This document shows positions 2,721-10,810 of a stretch of DNA of 38,607 nucleotides, piece after piece; the first letter of the stretch is position 1, and every line of letters begins with the position of its first letter. The DNA comes from Candidatus Doudnabacteria bacterium (GTDB lineage Bacteria > Patescibacteriota > Doudnabacteria > UBA920 > 2-01-FULL-46-14): contig JAHFJD010000005.1 of NCBI GenBank assembly GCA_023246055.1, positions 1-38,607 on the forward strand, read 5' to 3'. A program made the translations under genes and the position numbers. The notes beneath the pieces were generated by a model. That model was not told the DNA's origin. It saw nothing but the letters and a program-made list of their open reading frames with translations, and searched no databases.

Positions 2721-2799
2721 AATAAGAAAATACCATAGTGTATTTTAGTATAACATTGTCTTAAAGTATAGCAAAGTGTAAAATGTGAATAACTTAAAT
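2721..2799 (+). promoter_or_regulatory. Cassette-2 promoter/operator block
   Basis: The first 40 bases are identical to 453-492. -35 TTGTCT at 2756-2761 and -10 TAAAAT at 2779-2784 are separated by 17 bp. Initiation near 2791 would leave a leader of about nine bases before the ATG at 2800, with no Shine-Dalgarno site. Confidence 0.6.
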
Positions 2800-3006
2800 A
2801 TGGATAAAATTTCCGCACAACTTGGAAAAAATATGAAGCGCATCAGAGCAAAAAAGGAAATGTCGCAAGGTGATATTGCTCGCGCTTTAGATGTTGATAG
2901 GGGGTATATCAGCAATATTGAGAACGGGAAGAAAAATCCTACCCTTGCGACAGTTGCCAAAATAGCTAATGCGCTTGGCGTTTCGCCCGATGAGCTTTTG
3001 AAATAA
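2800..3006 (+). CDS. XRE-family HTH transcriptional regulator (copy 2)
   Basis: A 68-residue HTH protein from the ATG at 2800 (MDKISAQLGKN). A GTG at 2785 would extend it, but it overlaps the -10 box. The recognition region SQGDIARALDVDRGYISNIE is the same as in copy 1 apart from one conservative change, while the last helix differs more (ATVAKIANALGVSPDELLK). This suggests an unchanged operator and diverging partner contacts. It is the first gene of the reverse-transcriptase cassette and stops three bases before the RT start. Confidence 0.85.
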   Translation: MDKISAQLGKNMKRIRAKKEMSQGDIARALDVDRGYISNIENGKKNPTLATVAKIANALGVSPDELLK

Positions 3007-3009
3007 ATT

Positions 3010-4401
3010 ATGGACGATTTTAAAAAATTTAAGCAATATTTTAATAATGATTTTTGGCGGGCTTTTCAGGACAAGCAGTCATTTTTTAATATACCGAAAA
3101 CTAAAGCCGAGAAAGAAATTTTTGTAGAAAAATTATATAGAGAAATTGAGGAGCGGAGATATTATCCGTCTGTTCCTAGTTGCTATATTGACCGAGATAA
3201 AGGCAATGGCGTGACCAGAATTGTGCCAGTTTTTACGCTGAAAGATTATTGCGTTTATTATTACTGCATCAAAAAAATTGAGGACAAAATCGCTTATAAC
3301 CGCGTAGAAAATACTTTCGGTGGATGGACTTTGGGCGGTTTAATGAGAAAAGGCGAAGATGATGAGATGGAAAAAAGGCGGAAAAATTTTAACCGCTACG
3401 AAGATTTTGTCGCCGAACTTCACGGAATATCGGTTAGTGAGTATTCTTTCAATCCCGCGGCTTGGGCTAGGGCGTATGGAGATTTGAACGCGAAATTATA
3501 CGCTTCCGCCAAGTCGAGAAGTTTTAAATATGTTGCTGAGTTGGACATCGCCAATTATTATGACTCAATTCGCTTGGATATTTTGGAAATGCGTATCAGG
3601 GAGATCGTCAACGAAGAACACGCAGATATCGTCAGTTTGTTATTCCATTTTTTGAATTATTGGAACAGAAACACAAACCTATACAACAAGCAAACGGTCG
3701 GTATACCGCAAGACGCAATGGGCGACTGTTCGCGCATTCTTGCTAATTTTTATTTACAACCATACGACAAAATCGTTTTTGAATTATGCAAGCAAAACAA
3801 ATGCAAATACTTGAGATATGCCGACGACCAATTTCTTTTTGCAGAAGATAGAAACAAACTTCACATCTTGATATTTAAGGTATCTAAAAAGCTTAATTCA
3901 CTCGGCTTATCAGTCAATCAGAAAAAGGTTAAGGTGAGGACGACAGAAGATTTAATCAATAATCGGTCTTATAAGATTTTTGATTTGTTGAAAGAAGATA
4001 AAGACAGAAAAGATAAAAAGAAAGTTGAGCAATTTGTTGATTATTATCTTGATTTGCTGGATAAATCCGGGTTGGTAAATATAAAAGATAACGGAACACC
4101 ATTGTTAAATAAGGCCTTATTTTGCCCAGCTTTGAAAAGTATAGATTTTTCTAAAAAAACAAAATTAATGAGTTGTTATTTAGATGATGACTATCTAAAA
4201 AACGCGAGGGCAATTCATTTAGAAAAAATTTACAAATTGCTCGGCAAAAACGACAAGCAAGAATTTATCAAAAAATTAAACTCTCTTTCTCGAAAATTAA
4301 TCCACAACGCATTTCACTATGAACTTTTGAATTTCCACGAGAGAAATAAAATTGACAACCACCTTGTTTTAAAAAGGATAAAGAAACTGAGTAAGATATA
4401 A
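3010..4401 (+). CDS. Reverse transcriptase, retron/Abi/unknown-group-like
   Basis: A 463-residue protein. RT motifs appear in order: AELDIANYYDSI near residue 178 (motif 3 with catalytic Asp), VGIPQDAMGDCSRILANFYL near 230 (motif 4), KYLRYADDQFLF near 271 (motif 5, the YADD catalytic pair) and LGLSVNQKKVKV near 305 (motif 6). There is no maturase or endonuclease domain, so it is not a complete group II intron protein. The roughly 130-residue C-terminal extension is lysine-rich and unrecognised. No msr/msd-like structured RNA is apparent upstream, where an XRE gene sits instead, and no DGR-type template and variable repeats are seen. The best guess is a domesticated defence-type RT working with the adjacent membrane protein. 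Confidence 0.8.
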   Translation: MDDFKKFKQYFNNDFWRAFQDKQSFFNIPKTKAEKEIFVEKLYREIEERRYYPSVPSCYIDRDKGNGVTRIVPVFTLKDYCVYYYCIKKIEDKIAYNRVENTFGGWTLGGLMRKGEDDEMEKRRKNFNRYEDFVAELHGISVSEYSFNPAAWARAYGDLNAKLYASAKSRSFKYVAELDIANYYDSIRLDILEMRIREIVNEEHADIVSLLFHFLNYWNRNTNLYNKQTVGIPQDAMGDCSRILANFYLQPYDKIVFELCKQNKCKYLRYADDQFLFAEDRNKLHILIFKVSKKLNSLGLSVNQKKVKVRTTEDLINNRSYKIFDLLKEDKDRKDKKKVEQFVDYYLDLLDKSGLVNIKDNGTPLLNKALFCPALKSIDFSKKTKLMSCYLDDDYLKNARAIHLEKIYKLLGKNDKQEFIKKLNSLSRKLIHNAFHYELLNFHERNKIDNHLVLKRIKKLSKI

Positions 4402-5440: not shown

Positions 5441-5487
5441 TGTACAATTCTACCGAATTGTACAGTGGCTGTATGTTATGATATGAT
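5441..5487 (+). promoter_or_regulatory. Palindromic operator O1 and leaderless promoter of the ArsR-type gene
   Basis: TGTACAATTC N4 GAATTGTACA at 5441-5464. The -35 TTGTAC (5458-5463) is part of the right half-site and the -10 TATGAT lies at 5482-5487 with 18-bp spacing. Transcription would begin at about the ATG (5494). A repressor bound here would cover the -35 box, fitting autoregulation. Confidence 0.65.
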
Positions 5488-5493
5488 GAATTT

Positions 5494-5766
5494 ATGAAAC
5501 GCTGGACACAAATTTTTAAGGCCTTAGCGAATATTAATCGGTTAAAAATCATCAACCTGCTTGCCAATGGCATGTCCCTGACTGTCACGCAGATTACCGA
5601 TGAGCTTGATATCTCTTTTCGGGGAACCTCGCGCCATTTGCTTCTCCTTCACGGTTTAGATATTCTCTCGAGCGTGGGCAGAAACGGACATGTCTTTTAT
5701 TCATACAACCGTAGCCTGCCGGGAGACGTAAAAAAAATTGTAGAAATTTTTTTGAAAGATGTTTGA
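5494..5766 (+). CDS. ArsR-family winged-helix transcriptional regulator
   Basis: A 90-residue protein with the ArsR HTH layout: KALANINRLKIINLLANG, then VTQITDELDISFRGTSRHLLLLHGLDIL, then a wing, SVGRNGHVFYSYN. The usual metal-binding ELCVCDL motif is absent, so the signal is unknown. It lies between two copies of the same palindrome (O1 upstream, O2 downstream), which argues for self-control and control of the following gene. The ATG at 5494 sits at the expected transcription start of its promoter, so the message is probably leaderless. Confidence 0.8.
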   Translation: MKRWTQIFKALANINRLKIINLLANGMSLTVTQITDELDISFRGTSRHLLLLHGLDILSSVGRNGHVFYSYNRSLPGDVKKIVEIFLKDV

Positions 5767-5780
5767 TTGCTTCTCGGACG

Positions 5781-5810
5781 CACTGTACAATTCGGTAGAA
5801 TTGTACAGTG
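5781..5810. promoter_or_regulatory. Palindromic operator O2
   Basis: CACTGTACAATTC GGTA GAATTGTACAGTG, a perfect 13-bp inverted repeat around a 4-bp centre, between the ArsR-type gene and the TSP3 gene. The nearest strong promoter for the TSP3 gene lies about 24 bp further on. Confidence 0.65.
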
Positions 5811-5833
5811 GCTGTGTTGAGGATGGAAACACG

Positions 5834-5862
5834 TTGATTTTTTTCAAAAATTATGTTATAAT
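5834..5862 (+). promoter_or_regulatory. Promoter of the TSP3 secreted protein
   Basis: -35 TTGATT (5834-5839), 17-bp spacer, consensus -10 TATAAT (5857-5862). It lies just downstream of operator O2, so binding at O2 could hinder polymerase. Confidence 0.6.
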
Positions 5863-5894
5863 TGCTATGGTGCTAAGGATTTGCTTCGCGAATA

Positions 5895-8171
5895 GTGTTG
5901 AAACAAAAACAAATTTTTATAGTATTAATTCTAAGCCTGCTGATCTCCCAGGATACAGCTTTTGTTTTTGCCCAGACGCTTGATGCGGTAACCCCTGCCC
6001 CATCAGATACCACCGCTCCGGTGATATCCGGCGTTGCAGTAACCTCCGTTGGTATAAATGAAGTTACTATTGTGTGGTCAACCGATGAAGCTGCTGTTTC
6101 TACCCTGGAATATGGCACGACCAATGCTTATGGTCAGTCTGCCGCCCTACCGGCAACGGCTCTCTTAGCTCATACCGCAACGCTCACCAGTCTCACCGCT
6201 GGCACAACATATCACTACTGCATCCATGCGACTGATGCAGTCGATAATAAATCCAGTTCCTGCGGACATACGTTCGCGGCCGAAGCACAAACAGCCACTG
6301 AACCGGTTATAGCCGATTCCGATAGTGATGGCGTTTCGGATACCGAAGAAATTGGTACCGAAGCAACTGAAGAATCCAGTCCGGAAGCCGATGTTACCGA
6401 TCCCGAAGCTTTCCCGGATACTGACAGTGATGGCATGCCAAATTATCTTGATACCGACGATGACGGCGACGGTATTCCTACCGAAACAGAAAATACCAAT
6501 GCCACAACAACGGCTAACACTACTGTCACAGAACCGGATGCTGACGCTGACTCTGTGCCAGACTATCTCGAACCGAACACCATGGACACAGACCACGACG
6601 GGACAACCAACAACCTTGATTCCGATGACGATAGCGACAGTGTGCCGACCATTGATGACGGCACGGTTACGGGTGACCCAGTTGAACCGGTTGACACTGA
6701 CAGTGATGGCACGCCAAATTATCTTGATACCGACGATGACGGCGACACAGTCCCAACAATAGATGAAGACACTGCTACTTCCACGGATTCGGCAAGCTCA
6801 CCGCAGGCTGATCCCACAACTGCAGACTCTGATGGCGATACTGTGCCTGATTATCTTGAACCAAACACGACTGATACTGACCGCGACGGCACTCCCAATG
6901 TGAGCGATCCGGACGATGATGGGGACAGTGTGCCGACGTCTGACGAAGTGATTACCGACACCTCTGACACGGATGCCGCTGTGGATGAATCAACTGTTGA
7001 TACCGATAGTGATGACATACCAAACGCGCTTGATCCCGACGATGACGGGGATGGAACATCTACTGTAAATGAAGACACTAATCACGGCGGCTCTGTCGTC
7101 AATGATGATACCGACGGCGATGGCATACCGAATTTTGAAGAACCAAATGACGTTGATACCGACCAGGACGGGGTAACCAACAACGCCGACAGTGATGATG
7201 ATGGCGATACGATCCCAACTCCACAAGAGACTGTGCAAGTTCCGGCTCCGGTAAGCTCTGGCGGAGGTGGTGGTGGATATTACTATAGGCCACCAATTGA
7301 CACTGATGGTAACGGAATTCCGGATTACCTTGATACCGATGACGACAAAGACGGTACTCCCACGAAAAACGAAAAGGGCGACAGCGACAAAGACACCCTG
7401 CCTGACTACAAAGAATCAAACACACGCGATCTGGACAAGGACGGCAAGAAAGATGCCGCGGACAATGAGGATGACGGTGATGGTATTTTAAGCAGACTTG
7501 ATTCCAATCCGTATTCCGATTCCTGCTATACTCCGGCTGAACTTGGTTACGCTGTGTATATTGTTTTGCCCAATCGCTCAAAGCGCATGGCCGGAAAATT
7601 TGCCAAAAAGACCGTCCTAGCTGACAATATCATCCGCTATGATTTCGAACTGGGCACGGACAATGATTTCAACGATCTTACAGTACGCGTAAACGACGAA
7701 GGCCACCGTTCATTTATCGCCACTATTATGAATTCACGGGTCGGCACACGCTATGCGGTACACCTACAAATTCTTGGCAACGGTGCAATAGAGAAAGATT
7801 TAACACTTTCGGGAAACCCGCGTTCTGCCGTGAACACGCCTCAGCGCATTATCGTTAACCAGTATCTTACCATTTGCGATGATCACGAAGACTTTTGCCC
7901 GGCTCACATTACCCAGTACATGAGAAAGAGCGCAAACAACGACCCAGTCGAGGTCAGCAAGCTCCAGTCATTCCTCCTTGAACAGGAAGGTCTTACAAAC
8001 ATACAGGTGAACGGAGTGTTTGATAATGCTACTGACGCCGCTGTGCGGGCATTCCAGGAAAGATATGTAAGTATTGTGCTAGGCCCTTGGGCGATCCAGA
8101 AAGGCACTGGCTACGTCTACCGCACCACGACCAAGCAAATCAATGATCTGCACTGTGCAGCCAAGAAATAA
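5895..8171 (+). CDS. Secreted thrombospondin type 3 repeat protein with peptidoglycan-binding domain
   Basis: A 758-residue protein. The signal peptide is about residues 1-26 (IFIVLILSLLISQ ... VFAQ). A fibronectin-III-like domain spans about 40-130 (TAPVISGVAVTSVGINEVTI). About 15 Asp-rich calcium-binding TSP3-type repeats follow, with the pattern DTDSDGTPNYLDTDDDGD. A Ser-Gly-rich hinge sits near residue 455. Then comes a DUF4114-like segment (FELGTDNDFNDLTVRV) and a C-terminal peptidoglycan-binding helix bundle (VSKLQSFLLEQEGL ... GVFDNATDAAVRAFQ). It is probably a calcium-stiffened stalk anchored in the cell wall. The start is GTG at 5895 or TTG at 5898, without a clear Shine-Dalgarno site. 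Confidence 0.85.
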   Translation: MLKQKQIFIVLILSLLISQDTAFVFAQTLDAVTPAPSDTTAPVISGVAVTSVGINEVTIVWSTDEAAVSTLEYGTTNAYGQSAALPATALLAHTATLTSLTAGTTYHYCIHATDAVDNKSSSCGHTFAAEAQTATEPVIADSDSDGVSDTEEIGTEATEESSPEADVTDPEAFPDTDSDGMPNYLDTDDDGDGIPTETENTNATTTANTTVTEPDADADSVPDYLEPNTMDTDHDGTTNNLDSDDDSDSVPTIDDGTVTGDPVEPVDTDSDGTPNYLDTDDDGDTVPTIDEDTATSTDSASSPQADPTTADSDGDTVPDYLEPNTTDTDRDGTPNVSDPDDDGDSVPTSDEVITDTSDTDAAVDESTVDTDSDDIPNALDPDDDGDGTSTVNEDTNHGGSVVNDDTDGDGIPNFEEPNDVDTDQDGVTNNADSDDDGDTIPTPQETVQVPAPVSSGGGGGGYYYRPPIDTDGNGIPDYLDTDDDKDGTPTKNEKGDSDKDTLPDYKESNTRDLDKDGKKDAADNEDDGDGILSRLDSNPYSDSCYTPAELGYAVYIVLPNRSKRMAGKFAKKTVLADNIIRYDFELGTDNDFNDLTVRVNDEGHRSFIATIMNSRVGTRYAVHLQILGNGAIEKDLTLSGNPRSAVNTPQRIIVNQYLTICDDHEDFCPAHITQYMRKSANNDPVEVSKLQSFLLEQEGLTNIQVNGVFDNATDAAVRAFQERYVSIVLGPWAIQKGTGYVYRTTTKQINDLHCAAKK

Positions 8172-8265
8172 TAATTTTGGCTAGTGTTTGGTTCTCCATA
8201 GAAGCGCCCCGCCAGAGGCGGGCGGGCAATCGCTTAAAATAACAGTTCTAAATTCTCGTACCGCG

Positions 8266-8295
8266 CACTATACAATTCACTAGAATTGTATAGTG
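8266..8295. promoter_or_regulatory. Palindromic operator O3
   Basis: CACTATACAATTC ACTA GAATTGTATAGTG is the same palindrome as O1 and O2 with one symmetric change per arm (GTAC to ATAC). It lies upstream of the YdeI-like gene. The rest of 8172-8371 holds only this and the second palindrome. Confidence 0.6.
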
Positions 8296-8304
8296 GCCCG
8301 CACT

Positions 8305-8340
8305 GTGTGGTATTACCATACTAGTATGGTAATACCACAC
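8305..8340. promoter_or_regulatory. Perfect 36-bp palindrome
   Basis: The left half GTGTGGTATTACCATACT is mirrored exactly by AGTATGGTAATACCACAC. Each half also contains the near-palindrome GGTATTACC, giving four quasi-repeats. It sits between O3 and the promoter region of the YdeI-like gene and is either a tetrameric repressor site or a cruciform-forming site. Confidence 0.6.
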
Positions 8341-8371
8341 GAATTTTTTGATATTGTGATACTATATACTC

Positions 8372-8638
8372 GTGAAAAATATAACAATAACCCAAAAGAA
8401 AATCTCCCCTGGCATGGTACACAAAATGCCGACGGATTTACGAAAAGTCCTTACTTCTTCTAAAAAAGCGCTTCAAGCGTGGGCGGATATCACGCCACTC
8501 GCGCGCAATGAGTGGACCTGCTGGGTTCTAAACGCCAAGCGGGTAGAGACGAGGAAGCGCCGGATCGAAAGAACGCGCACGGAGCTTATGAAAGGCATCC
8601 GCCGGCCGTGCTGCTGGGCCGGCTGCCCACATCGGTGA
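8372..8638 (+). CDS. Short YdeI/OmpD-associated family protein
   Basis: An 88-residue protein matching the C-terminal helix pair of the YdeI/OmpD-associated family: DITPLARNEWTCWVLNAKRV then ETRKRRIERTRTELMKG. It ends with a Cys/His cluster (RRPCCWAGCPHR) that could bind zinc. The GTG at 8372 is chosen as start; an internal ATG at 8414 is the alternative. Two palindromes lie directly upstream, suggesting regulation. The molecular role of the family is not settled. Confidence 0.65.
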   Translation: MKNITITQKKISPGMVHKMPTDLRKVLTSSKKALQAWADITPLARNEWTCWVLNAKRVETRKRRIERTRTELMKGIRRPCCWAGCPHR

Positions 8639-8679
8639 AATAATAGGTCATGTCCCCATTATTCGTTGAAGAAGGGGGG

Positions 8680-8996
8680 ATGTTAAAAGATAAAAACGAT
8701 GCCAGGCGAAAGCTGGCCAAAAAACTTTAAACATACCACGGGACCAATGCGGTCGTTCTGGCATTACCCCGAGGAGGCGTGGTTGTCGGTGAGGAAATCC
8801 GGAAAAAATAATTGTTGCGGTGCCTGTTGCTCCTCCTGAATCTACTGATGAAATCAGGGAATAAGGAGCTGATGATGTGGTTATGCTTGAACCATCGGAA
8901 GAATTCATGGGAGCGGTTGGGACGCATTCTCAAAATTTTGATCGGGTTGACGACGAGGAGGTTATTCGTCTGCTTCAGTATAGTTTGAATGAATAA
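8680..8996 (+). pseudogene. Decayed phosphoribosyltransferase gene
   Basis: Starting at ATG 8680 the frame reads MLKDKNDARRKLAKKL, stop, TYHGTNAVVLALPRGGVVVG, EEIRKK, stop. It then resumes in another frame with IVAVPVAPPESTDEIRE, stop, GADDVVMLEPSEEFMGAVG and ends EVIRLLQYSLNE. These pieces match, in order, the start, the LPRGG region and the C-terminal part of the PRTase-domain family, with the central catalytic portion deleted. Three internal stops and a frame change make it non-functional. Confidence 0.6.
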
Positions 8997-9021
8997 AATT
9001 TTCTGCTAAAATACATAATAC

Positions 9022-9111
9022 ATGAAGGGCTACAATACAAACCTCGAAAACTTTCTCTTGAAAACCATTTATTCGCTACCAAACGCGCTTAAAATAAACT
9101 GTAATTTATGA
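9022..9111 (+). CDS. Small ORF coupled to the DUF7670-like gene
   Basis: A 29-codon ORF (MKGYNTNLENFLLKTIYSLP ...) whose TGA overlaps the ATG of the next gene (ATGA). A TAAAAT -10 box lies at 9006-9011. It may be a leader peptide, or the remnant of a gene. I recognise no family. Confidence 0.3.
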   Translation: MKGYNTNLENFLLKTIYSLPNALKINCNL

Positions 9112-9440
9112 ACAAATTTCTCTTTTGGGCGCCACGCATCGCATCGCTTTTGTTTGTGGGGTTTTTATCAGTCTTTGCGTTTGATGTGTTTGGAGAATAC
9201 CAGGGGTGGCAAACTGTCCTTGCGTCGTTTATCCATCTCATTCCCTCCCTCGCTCTCTTAGTGCTGGTGCTGGTAGCGTGGAGATATGAGTTGGCTGGAG
9301 CGGCGGCATTTTTAGGACTTGCCCTGTTGTATGTTGGGATTGTCGGGTTGCATCAGCATTGGAGTTGATATGCAAGCATAGCAGTCCCCGCCGCAGTAGT
9401 TGGACTGCTCTACATCTACAGCTGGCTGCAAAAAAGGTGA
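9108..9440 (+). pseudogene. DUF7670-like small membrane protein with internal TGA
   Basis: The intact part encodes 86 residues with about three transmembrane helices (FLFWAPRIASLLFVGFLSVF, ASFIHLIPSLALLVLVLVAW, AAFLGLALLYVGIVGL) and stops at 9366-9368. The same frame continues at once with YASIAVPAAVVGLLYIYSW and LQKR to a TGA at 9438-9440, supplying what looks like the missing last helix. I therefore read it as a roughly 110-residue membrane protein cut by a nonsense mutation. The 86-residue product may still be made. Confidence 0.55.
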
Positions 9441-9485
9441 AAAGCCCCGCTGGTTGTGGGGACCTCCGGACAAATACAAACCTGA

Positions 9486-9659
9486 GCAGTAGTTTTTAGA
9501 GAAGTCACCACCACAAATTCCTTCGGCCAAGCGAGTTACACAGCTAATTTTGGCATAGTCTCCGCCAAAACGGTTTTTGATTTTTATGCTCTAAAGTTCC
9601 ACCTGAGCGACGAAGAATTTAAAAAAAGTAACACAAAAATTACATATTTAATTACGTAA
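9486..9659 (+). pseudogene. Possible gene fragment
   Basis: A 57-codon open frame without a start codon, reading AVVFREVTTTNSFGQASYTA ... FDFYALKFHLSDEEFKKSN to TAA at 9657-9659. The sequence looks protein-like but I recognise no family. Given the decayed genes on both sides it is probably the tail of another broken gene. Confidence 0.25.
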
Positions 9660-9692
9660 TTATTCCGACCGCCGCCTGTGCTCGCCCCCCTC

Positions 9693-9740
9693 CGTTGTAC
9701 AATTCGCGCGAATTGTACAACGGGTTTGATATATTAAACT
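9693..9740 (+). promoter_or_regulatory. Palindromic operator O4 and orphan promoter
   Basis: CGTTGTACAATTC GCGC GAATTGTACAACG is a perfect 30-bp palindrome (9693-9722) sharing the TGTACAATTC core. Its right half includes a TTGTAC -35 box (9713-9718), followed by a TATATTAAACT region at the right distance for a -10. The gene it served appears to have been broken by the IS630 insertion at 9791. Confidence 0.6.
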
Positions 9741-9846
9741 CTGTTAATGTGCCACGCAGATAGGTGAGTTACGGAATTGTTTTTTTATCCTACTGACCTT
9801 CACAAATCCCCTTTACTATATATCTTGAGTCTGCTACAATGCAGAC

Positions 9847-10335
9847 ATGAATACATTACATCCTAACCGAGCCTTGCCACCGCAAGAGCTTGAAGCGCGC
9901 CGCAAGACAGCGGCCCGGTATTTTAAGCAAGGAAAGACACGATATTGGGTATCCCGGCATTTCCAGGTCTCCCGGCCCGCTGCCAGCCAGTGGTATGCAC
10001 GATGGAAAGACGGCACCCTGGCCTCCCGCAAACCCGGGAAAAAAGAGAAGCTTGCTTCTGATCAGAAGAAGAAGCTTGCGGGAATCATTCTCAACAATCC
10101 CACCGACTACGGATACTCCACTCAATTGTGGACACTAGAGAGAATCACCGCAGTGGTCAAAAAGAAATTAAAAGTTGCATACAAACCCCGATCTCTGGCC
10201 CATATGCTTCATTCTCTGGGCTTTTCTTACCAAAAGCCTGAACAGCGGGCCAAAGAGCGAAATGAAACAAAGATTAAGACATGGATGACAAAAACGTGGC
10301 CAGCGCTTCTAAAAAAGGGGCTTCCCGCGCATTAA
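9847..10335 (+). CDS. IS630 transposase, upstream ORF (HTH part)
   Basis: A 162-residue N-terminal part with helix-turn-helix segments (KTAARYFKQGKTRYWVSRHF then QVSRPAASQWYARWKDG), as in IS630 orfA. Near its end, at 10311-10317, lies A AAA AAG in the zero frame, a classical -1 slippery heptamer. Slipping there joins this frame to the downstream catalytic ORF, as known for several IS families. Confidence 0.85.
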   Translation: MNTLHPNRALPPQELEARRKTAARYFKQGKTRYWVSRHFQVSRPAASQWYARWKDGTLASRKPGKKEKLASDQKKKLAGIILNNPTDYGYSTQLWTLERITAVVKKKLKVAYKPRSLAHMLHSLGFSYQKPEQRAKERNETKIKTWMTKTWPALLKKGLPAH

Positions 10336-10784
10336 CCTTTTGTTTTCTTGATGAATCAGGATTTTCAGAGAAACCGCCGATTAGAAAAACCTGGGGGAAG
10401 AAAGGACACACCCCGATCATCCAATCAACCGGATCCTGGAAATCTTTGTCAGTGACCGGCATTATCGCTACCAAAGCCAGCCGCAAGAAACCAAAGGCAT
10501 TTTTTACCGTGAAAAAAGGAGCTGTCCGGTCAGAGGATACCATGAGAACCCTGTCCCATCTCATTGAGAATCGGTTTGTCATGGTTGAACGGTTCCCCGC
10601 TTATGCTCCCGAGCTCAATCCCCAGGAATACCTCTGGTCAGCTGCCAAAGGCAAAGATATGGCTAACTTCTGCCCATACAAGGACAATGACCTGCATAGG
10701 CAAACAAAGAACAGTCTGAGGAGAATACAGAGAAACGAGAAGATCATTCAGGGAGCGCTTGCTAAATCGAAGTTATTTTTATAG
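10281..10784 (+). CDS. IS630 transposase, catalytic ORF with internal deletion
   Basis: It contains the first catalytic motif FCFLDESGFSEKPPIRKTWG and the third, ERFPAYAPELNPQEYLW. The usual middle motif (of the form WDGxPAHRS) is missing: TMRTLSHLI runs straight into ENRFVMVERF, about 25 residues short. The DDE triad is therefore incomplete. It is expressed by -1 frameshifting from the upstream ORF; the upstream in-frame ATG at 10281 is not needed as a start. Confidence 0.8.
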   Translation: MDDKNVASASKKGASRALTFCFLDESGFSEKPPIRKTWGKKGHTPIIQSTGSWKSLSVTGIIATKASRKKPKAFFTVKKGAVRSEDTMRTLSHLIENRFVMVERFPAYAPELNPQEYLWSAAKGKDMANFCPYKDNDLHRQTKNSLRRIQRNEKIIQGALAKSKLFL

Positions 10785-10810
10785 TAAAGGGGATTTGTGA
10801 AGGTCAGTAG

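Follow-up and report, generated by a model that had tools for sequence, protein, structure and literature searches.

A palindrome-bracketed ArsR-like regulator gene in Patescibacteria and its putative operators

Why should an operator be kept just behind a regulator gene as well as in front of it? The question is posed by a 38,607-nucleotide stretch of DNA from a Candidatus Doudnabacteria bacterium (the window; contig C52 of genome G000), in which the gene of a 90-aa ArsR-like protein lies between two near-identical palindromes. An earlier note on the window had proposed that these two palindromes and two further copies form an ArsR-type regulon. We followed the palindrome through the genome of the window (1.16 Mb, 67 contigs) and through homologues of the regulator in other genomes.

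Palindromes and regulator gene in the window

The four near-identical palindromes are real, the pattern giving four matches in the window vs none in 100 shuffles, and the claim that two of them flank the regulator gene holds as well, the 90-aa gene at 5494-5766 lying between those at 5441 and 5784. Exact copies of TGTACAATTC-N4-GAATTGTACA occur at 5441-5464 (centre TACC), 5784-5807 (GGTA) and 9696-9719 (GCGC), and the variant TATACAATTC-ACTA-GAATTGTATA at 8269-8292 carries a change that is compensated on both arms. Perfect symmetry spans 24 bp at 5441, 30 bp at both 5781-5810 and 8266-8295, and 32 bp at 9692-9723. A genome-wide search, set beforehand as a test, showed the palindrome to be rare: G000 contains nine exact copies of TACAATTC-N4-GAATTGTA, one or two mismatches give no further site, and the three matches found with three mismatches are at the same level as the two in a reversed control. 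The wider core CAATTC-N4-GAATTG yields a tenth site, on contig C16, where it adjoins a second ArsR-like gene of this genome (52% identical).

Table 1 Features of the window around the regulator gene
Feature	Position	Strand	Basis and remarks
Upstream operator palindrome (putative), centre TACC	5441..5464	.	Pattern scan; right half overlaps arsR -35; same place and same centre at the G002 orthologue
arsR promoter TGTACA-17-TATGAT, extended -10 (TG)	5459..5487	+	Promoter scan
ArsR/SmtB-like winged-helix regulator, 90 aa, recognition helix ISFRGTSRHL, no Cys	5494..5766	+	Pfam HTH_5 2e-6
Downstream operator palindrome (putative), centre GGTA, inverted copy of upstream	5781..5810	.	Pair conserved in G002 and in 36/44 homologues
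Promoter TTGATT-17-TATAAT of TSP3/PG-binding gene	5834..5862	+	Promoter scan; downstream palindrome ends about 24 bp upstream
Secreted protein, fn3-like, TSP3-type repeat, PG_binding_1, 758 aa, possible target	5895..8171	+	Pfam
Solo palindrome, compensated variant TATACAATTC-ACTA-GAATTGTATA	8266..8295	.	Pattern scan, arm covariation
OmdA/YdeI-like protein, downstream of 8269 site	8372..8638	+	Pfam OmdA 7.5e-16
Solo palindrome, centre GCGC, perfect 32 bp	9692..9723	.	Pattern scan
72-bp copy (90%) of site and bipA leader; intact version at G000:C38	9696..9767	+	Sequence match; BipA by Pfam
Insertion sequence (HTH_33 and DDE-like ORFs, two frames), truncates whatever followed the 9696 site	9797..10801	+	Sequence, HTH_33

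The protein encoded between the first two palindromes matches Pfam HTH_5 above cut-off and scores below the cut-off of HTH_metalloreg, the NCBIfam metalloregulator model. Its closest solved relatives by sequence are CzrA, PagR, SmtB and HlyU, and its AlphaFold2 model (pLDDT 94.7) finds HlyU, CzrA and CadC as best PDB matches in Foldseek (TM about 0.8), so that a winged helix-turn-helix fold of the ArsR/SmtB type is predicted. The earlier note was right that the known metal-binding motif is lacking: the 90 residues hold no metal- or thiol-sensing residues, with no Cys and no visible metal site. Since ArsR members that do not sense metal exist, this absence rules out the metalloregulator subgroup only.

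The upstream palindrome covers the -35 box of arsR both in the window and in G002, the closest relative to carry an orthologue (74%), whose promoter reads TTGTAC-N17-TATGGT. The proposal that the right half-site supplies the -35 box stands at 5441 but is unconvincing at 9693, where the promoter scan found no promoter. Over all homologues, a -10 box near the upstream site has a frequency of 0.53 vs 0.43 in shuffles, which is not significant. Because the palindrome lies over the arsR -35, its binding should shut off arsR, which would then be negatively autoregulated via the upstream operator.

Two neighbouring features of the window may be recorded here. A second, different perfect palindrome, GTGTGGTATTACCATACTAGTATGGTAATACCACAC, lies at 8304-8341, some 10 bp beyond the 8269 site, and is followed by a T-run; it may be a terminator or the operator of another regulator. 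At 2785-4401, a Cro/C1-type HTH gene is directly followed by a reverse transcriptase gene (RVT_1, 463 aa, with weak matches to group II, retron and DRT models) and then by a lycopene-cyclase-like gene.

Homologues and the recognition helix

Homologues were chosen by protein similarity alone, without use of the palindrome. Twenty patescibacterial homologues came from named genomes; the G002 and G003 genes appear among them a second time, and one record with the label Spirochaetia is probably a mis-binned contig. Further ones were added from the same class and from another class, for a total of 44 genes in the clade. An ATTC-N4-GAAT palindrome lies 27-119 bp upstream of the gene in 42 of the 44, and a second one, between 19 bp before and 73 bp after the stop codon, occurs in 36, a count limited by one contig that stops 26 bp behind the gene and exclusive of extra downstream sites in G051 C1 and G062, which are asymmetric and below threshold. 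Among 14 ordinary ArsR genes of the same class (helix ISxPLASQH and others), matches were found upstream of two and downstream of one (Fisher 9e-9 and 8e-7, respectively, for rows that are not independent). At the G002 orthologue, a TACC palindrome precedes the gene and a GGTA palindrome follows it. The pair is also present at new genes found after the rule had been seen, in G441, G470, G575 and two G051 copies. The palindrome does therefore occur at orthologues of the regulator, as the earlier note had suggested checking.

The longer form ACAATTC-N4-GAATTGT occurs in only five of 49 genomes of the class, four of which carry a close homologue. Across 380 genomes of the phylum the core is rare, and most symmetric-centred matches fall in genomes known to hold a homologue; such matches also occur in G293, G234, G392 and G039, which were not searched for a close homologue, the ArsR matches in G039 being distant only. 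G039 contains a 52-bp perfect palindrome (L346:1421-1472) with the core CAATTC-GTAC-GAATTG and 20 further paired bases per side beyond ATTC-N4-GAAT, and no ArsR homologue lies within about 1.4 kb of it. In G001, rated 100% complete, an orphan TACC palindrome with 20-bp arms is kept at L088:3009-3052 despite no detectable ArsR homologue of this clade; in an empty-site comparison its flanks align in pieces only. In G051 (Jorgensenbacteria), a different small winged-HTH gene (L126:4280-4549) is bracketed by the perfect palindromes CAACAYTCYAACATTC..GAATGTTRGARTGTTG, with palindromes at 4264, 4581 and 5398, so that bracketing may reach beyond the ArsR clade. A search of open-access papers found no description of a palindrome-bracketed arsR arrangement.

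The arms are complementary out to -7/-8 from CAATTC and not further, which defines a 30-bp site of 13-4-13 layout whose half-sites resemble CAYTnnMCAATTC. Where the sites of a genome differ, the two arms of a site agree with each other more often than they do after exchange of arms between sites (0 of 5000 permutations scored as high), and two half-site types are mixed within some sites of G053, G049 and G051; perfect pairing is therefore not required. This arm covariation suits a dimer reading two half-sites, and the symmetry may owe something to template-switching repair of quasi-palindromes as well.

The four central bases vary with residues 47-48 of the recognition helix. With Lys-His (TS-K-H) the centre is GCGC at 29 of 34 sites, with Asn-His (TS-N-H) it is CATA or CATG at 18 of 18, and with Lys-Asn (AS-K-N) it is GCCC at all six; TS-R-H helices go with TACC, AACC or GCAC, and TS-R-N helices mostly with TATA. 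The usual preferences are Lys or Arg with G and Asn with A. The rule also separates paralogues of the same genome (GCGC for G051 C1 and CATA for C2; GCGC for G056 C15 and CATA for C39). Against this, GCGC centres are combined in G000 and G002 with arms of the TACC-type regulator. A tree that leaves out the helix columns shows eight changes of residue 47 and ten of the centre; because only three independent pairs fall on supported branches, the sign test is unpowered and the association is statistically inseparable from shared descent. As it stands, the association of residue 47 with the centre points to sequence-specific binding by a dimer of the regulator. Together with the homologue association and the site over the arsR -35, this helix link supports the claim of a protein-binding site with an ArsR-like binder, and on these sequence grounds the ArsR-like protein is very probably what binds the palindromes.

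The putative downstream operator, the solo sites and rival explanations

The downstream site persists even with a convergent neighbour (G003, G063, G053, and comF in G035 and G022), and the genes next to it are not conserved; it thus belongs to the regulator unit, of which it is a fixed part, and not to its neighbour. Intrinsic terminators were considered for the downstream sites and rejected, since TTTT follows only one of 34. The centres of the two operators are about 297-459 bp apart and, worked out by hand from the coordinates, share no common helical phase. Looping and a roadblock are the foremost candidates for what the downstream site would do.

Solo sites in G000 mostly precede genes, namely those of the TSP3 stalk, queuosine salvage, bipA (C38) and the OmdA protein (8269 site); of the others, one lies between convergent genes (C65) and one at a contig end. 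At 5784, C7:139 and C7:2577 a -35 box follows 27-32 bp behind the last base of the CAATTC-N4-GAATTG core, a spacing that suits an activator; both C7 sites are followed by TTGCCT-17-TATGAT, as read from the sequence. As for the IS-disrupted gene of the earlier note, the site at 9696 stands on an IS-truncated 72-bp copy (90%) of the bipA leader and is probably a duplicated leader, not an independent target.

Outside G000, solo sites are found within coding genes or between convergent ones, and the genomes have no targets in common, a point that the earlier note had wished to see checked. Operator-type 30-bp palindromes occur inside the genes of UvrC, IleRS, RsmI, ComEC, TsaE and an alpha/beta hydrolase (L103, L101, L109, L115, L116 and L120). 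A length comparison with relatives took in two of these six, RsmI (+1 aa) and TsaE (0); as neither protein is lengthened beyond one codon, the palindromes there arose in place. Sites in coding genes are the main difficulty: they weaken a pure promoter regulon and do not fit an insertion element either. The proposed regulon is therefore plausible in G000, where most solo sites precede genes, but it is not conserved, its targets being unshared and some sites lying in coding sequence or between convergent genes.

Of the rival explanations, the least unlikely treats palindrome-arsR-palindrome, about 350 bp long, as a minimal cassette that is mobile or has moved horizontally; the palindromes would be its ends and the solo copies its footprints. 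The unit is indeed patchy (7 of 384 genomes of one class), its occurrences have no neighbours in common, and several genomes hold two paralogous units. In L294 the two palindromes form an inverted repeat whose inner arms differ from the outer ones, the match between the two G059 copies ends at the downstream palindrome, and an orf240-P-arsR-P unit lies between tRNA and comF in G035 and G022 and is absent there in G036, G037, G038, G040, G041 and G042. Yet there is no transposase and no target duplication, the palindromes in RsmI and TsaE added no length, the flanks differ and are nevertheless each self-complementary, and no homologue was found in viral contigs; we regard a cassette as unlikely. 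Viral origin of the regulator was considered separately and rejected, with no homologue in IMG/VR. The unit between tRNA and comF (G022 L309:2100-3480 and G035 L139) includes an extra ORF of about 240 aa, and in G022 it has palindromes at both ends plus the middle. In G053 (L112, L113) palindromes lie within longer dispersed repeats, two sites having 85 bp or more of upstream sequence in common.

The palindromes might alternatively be the few parS-like sites of a chromosome-organising DNA-binding protein, placed regardless of promoters. As with parS, the sites are few and near-perfect, here 1-10 per genome, with no graded weaker sites in the genome of the window; several lie, without insertion, inside housekeeping genes (the six named above), and one G002 site is 83 bp before parB. 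This reading is very improbable, as the system is sporadic in the group and always brackets its own gene, most sites are intergenic, and the regulator has an ArsR-type fold, with no partner ATPase adjoining it and neither the ParA nor the CTPase of parS/ParB. That the palindromes are RNA hairpins (terminators or processing signals) and not DNA operators is hardly credible, for although arms covary within sites and some reach 18-20 bp, the upstream site of the window overlaps a -35 box and is not transcribed, T-runs are as scarce as stated, mixed half-sites break the pairing in G053 and G049, and the centre follows a protein residue.

Proposed mechanism and significance

We consider it likely that the whole is explained by an ArsR/SmtB-fold dimer with 13-4-13 operators, autoregulation, a two-sided unit and scattered operators; the analysis establishes the sites, how they pair with the gene, the covariation and the predicted fold, while binding, autorepression and looping or a roadblock are what we infer. 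The dimer would bind 30-bp operators, each half made up of CAYTnnMCAATTC and two centre bases; in the recognition helix (TS-X47-H48), residue 47 would read the centre and adjacent residues the flanks. Occupancy of the operator on its own -35 would give negative autoregulation. The 3' operator, as part of the same unit, would probably serve looping or cooperative self-repression, or else block transcription through the locus. A few more operators would be scattered on the chromosome, in G000 ahead of the TSP3 stalk, the queuosine-salvage gene, bipA and others, three of them in a position compatible with activation. A bolder version, which we hold to be improbable, makes palindrome-arsR-palindrome the smallest genetic unit of its kind able to maintain itself, moving as a cassette between patescibacterial genomes and imposing operator sites on the host chromosome, even in essential coding genes, without insertion.

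The proposed regulator resembles the ArsR/SmtB repressors (CzrA, SmtB, CadC, PagR, HlyU) in fold, size, winged helix, palindromic operators (there of the 12-2-12 kind) and autoregulation. As is usual in that family, a palindrome lies over the regulator's own promoter in the window, and the upstream site is found in 42 of 44 homologues. It differs in having no metal site or Cys, a 13-4-13 operator with the core CAATTC...GAATTG, a second operator 3' of the gene and no resistance operon. Reading of bases by helix-4 residues has been shown for NolR Gln56 and proposed for RexT Lys50, and RexT binds ATTCG-N15-CGAAT (PMC8960804). Recognition-helix residues would read bases here too, position 47 not necessarily being the counterpart of Gln56 or Lys50; unlike in RexT, sites with a GCGC centre have just 2 bp between ATTCG and CGAAT, and the redox Cys is absent. 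REP/RAYT units and Rickettsia palindromic elements likewise have palindromes flanking a gene and solo palindromes elsewhere, also in coding genes. In contrast to REP/RAYT, no HUH nuclease (Y1 transposase) is present, only the 90-aa winged-HTH gene between the palindromes, and in contrast to the Rickettsia elements the tested coding sites contain no in-frame insertion.

Almost nothing is known of the transcription factors and operators of uncultured Patescibacteria. Here sequence alone suffices to match a regulator family to its DNA sites, and the family offers a simple, testable code (residue 47 vs centre), an unusual two-sided operator layout, and natural variants ready for a study of ArsR specificity. 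The new part is the recurrence of this two-sided layout together with a readable specificity code.
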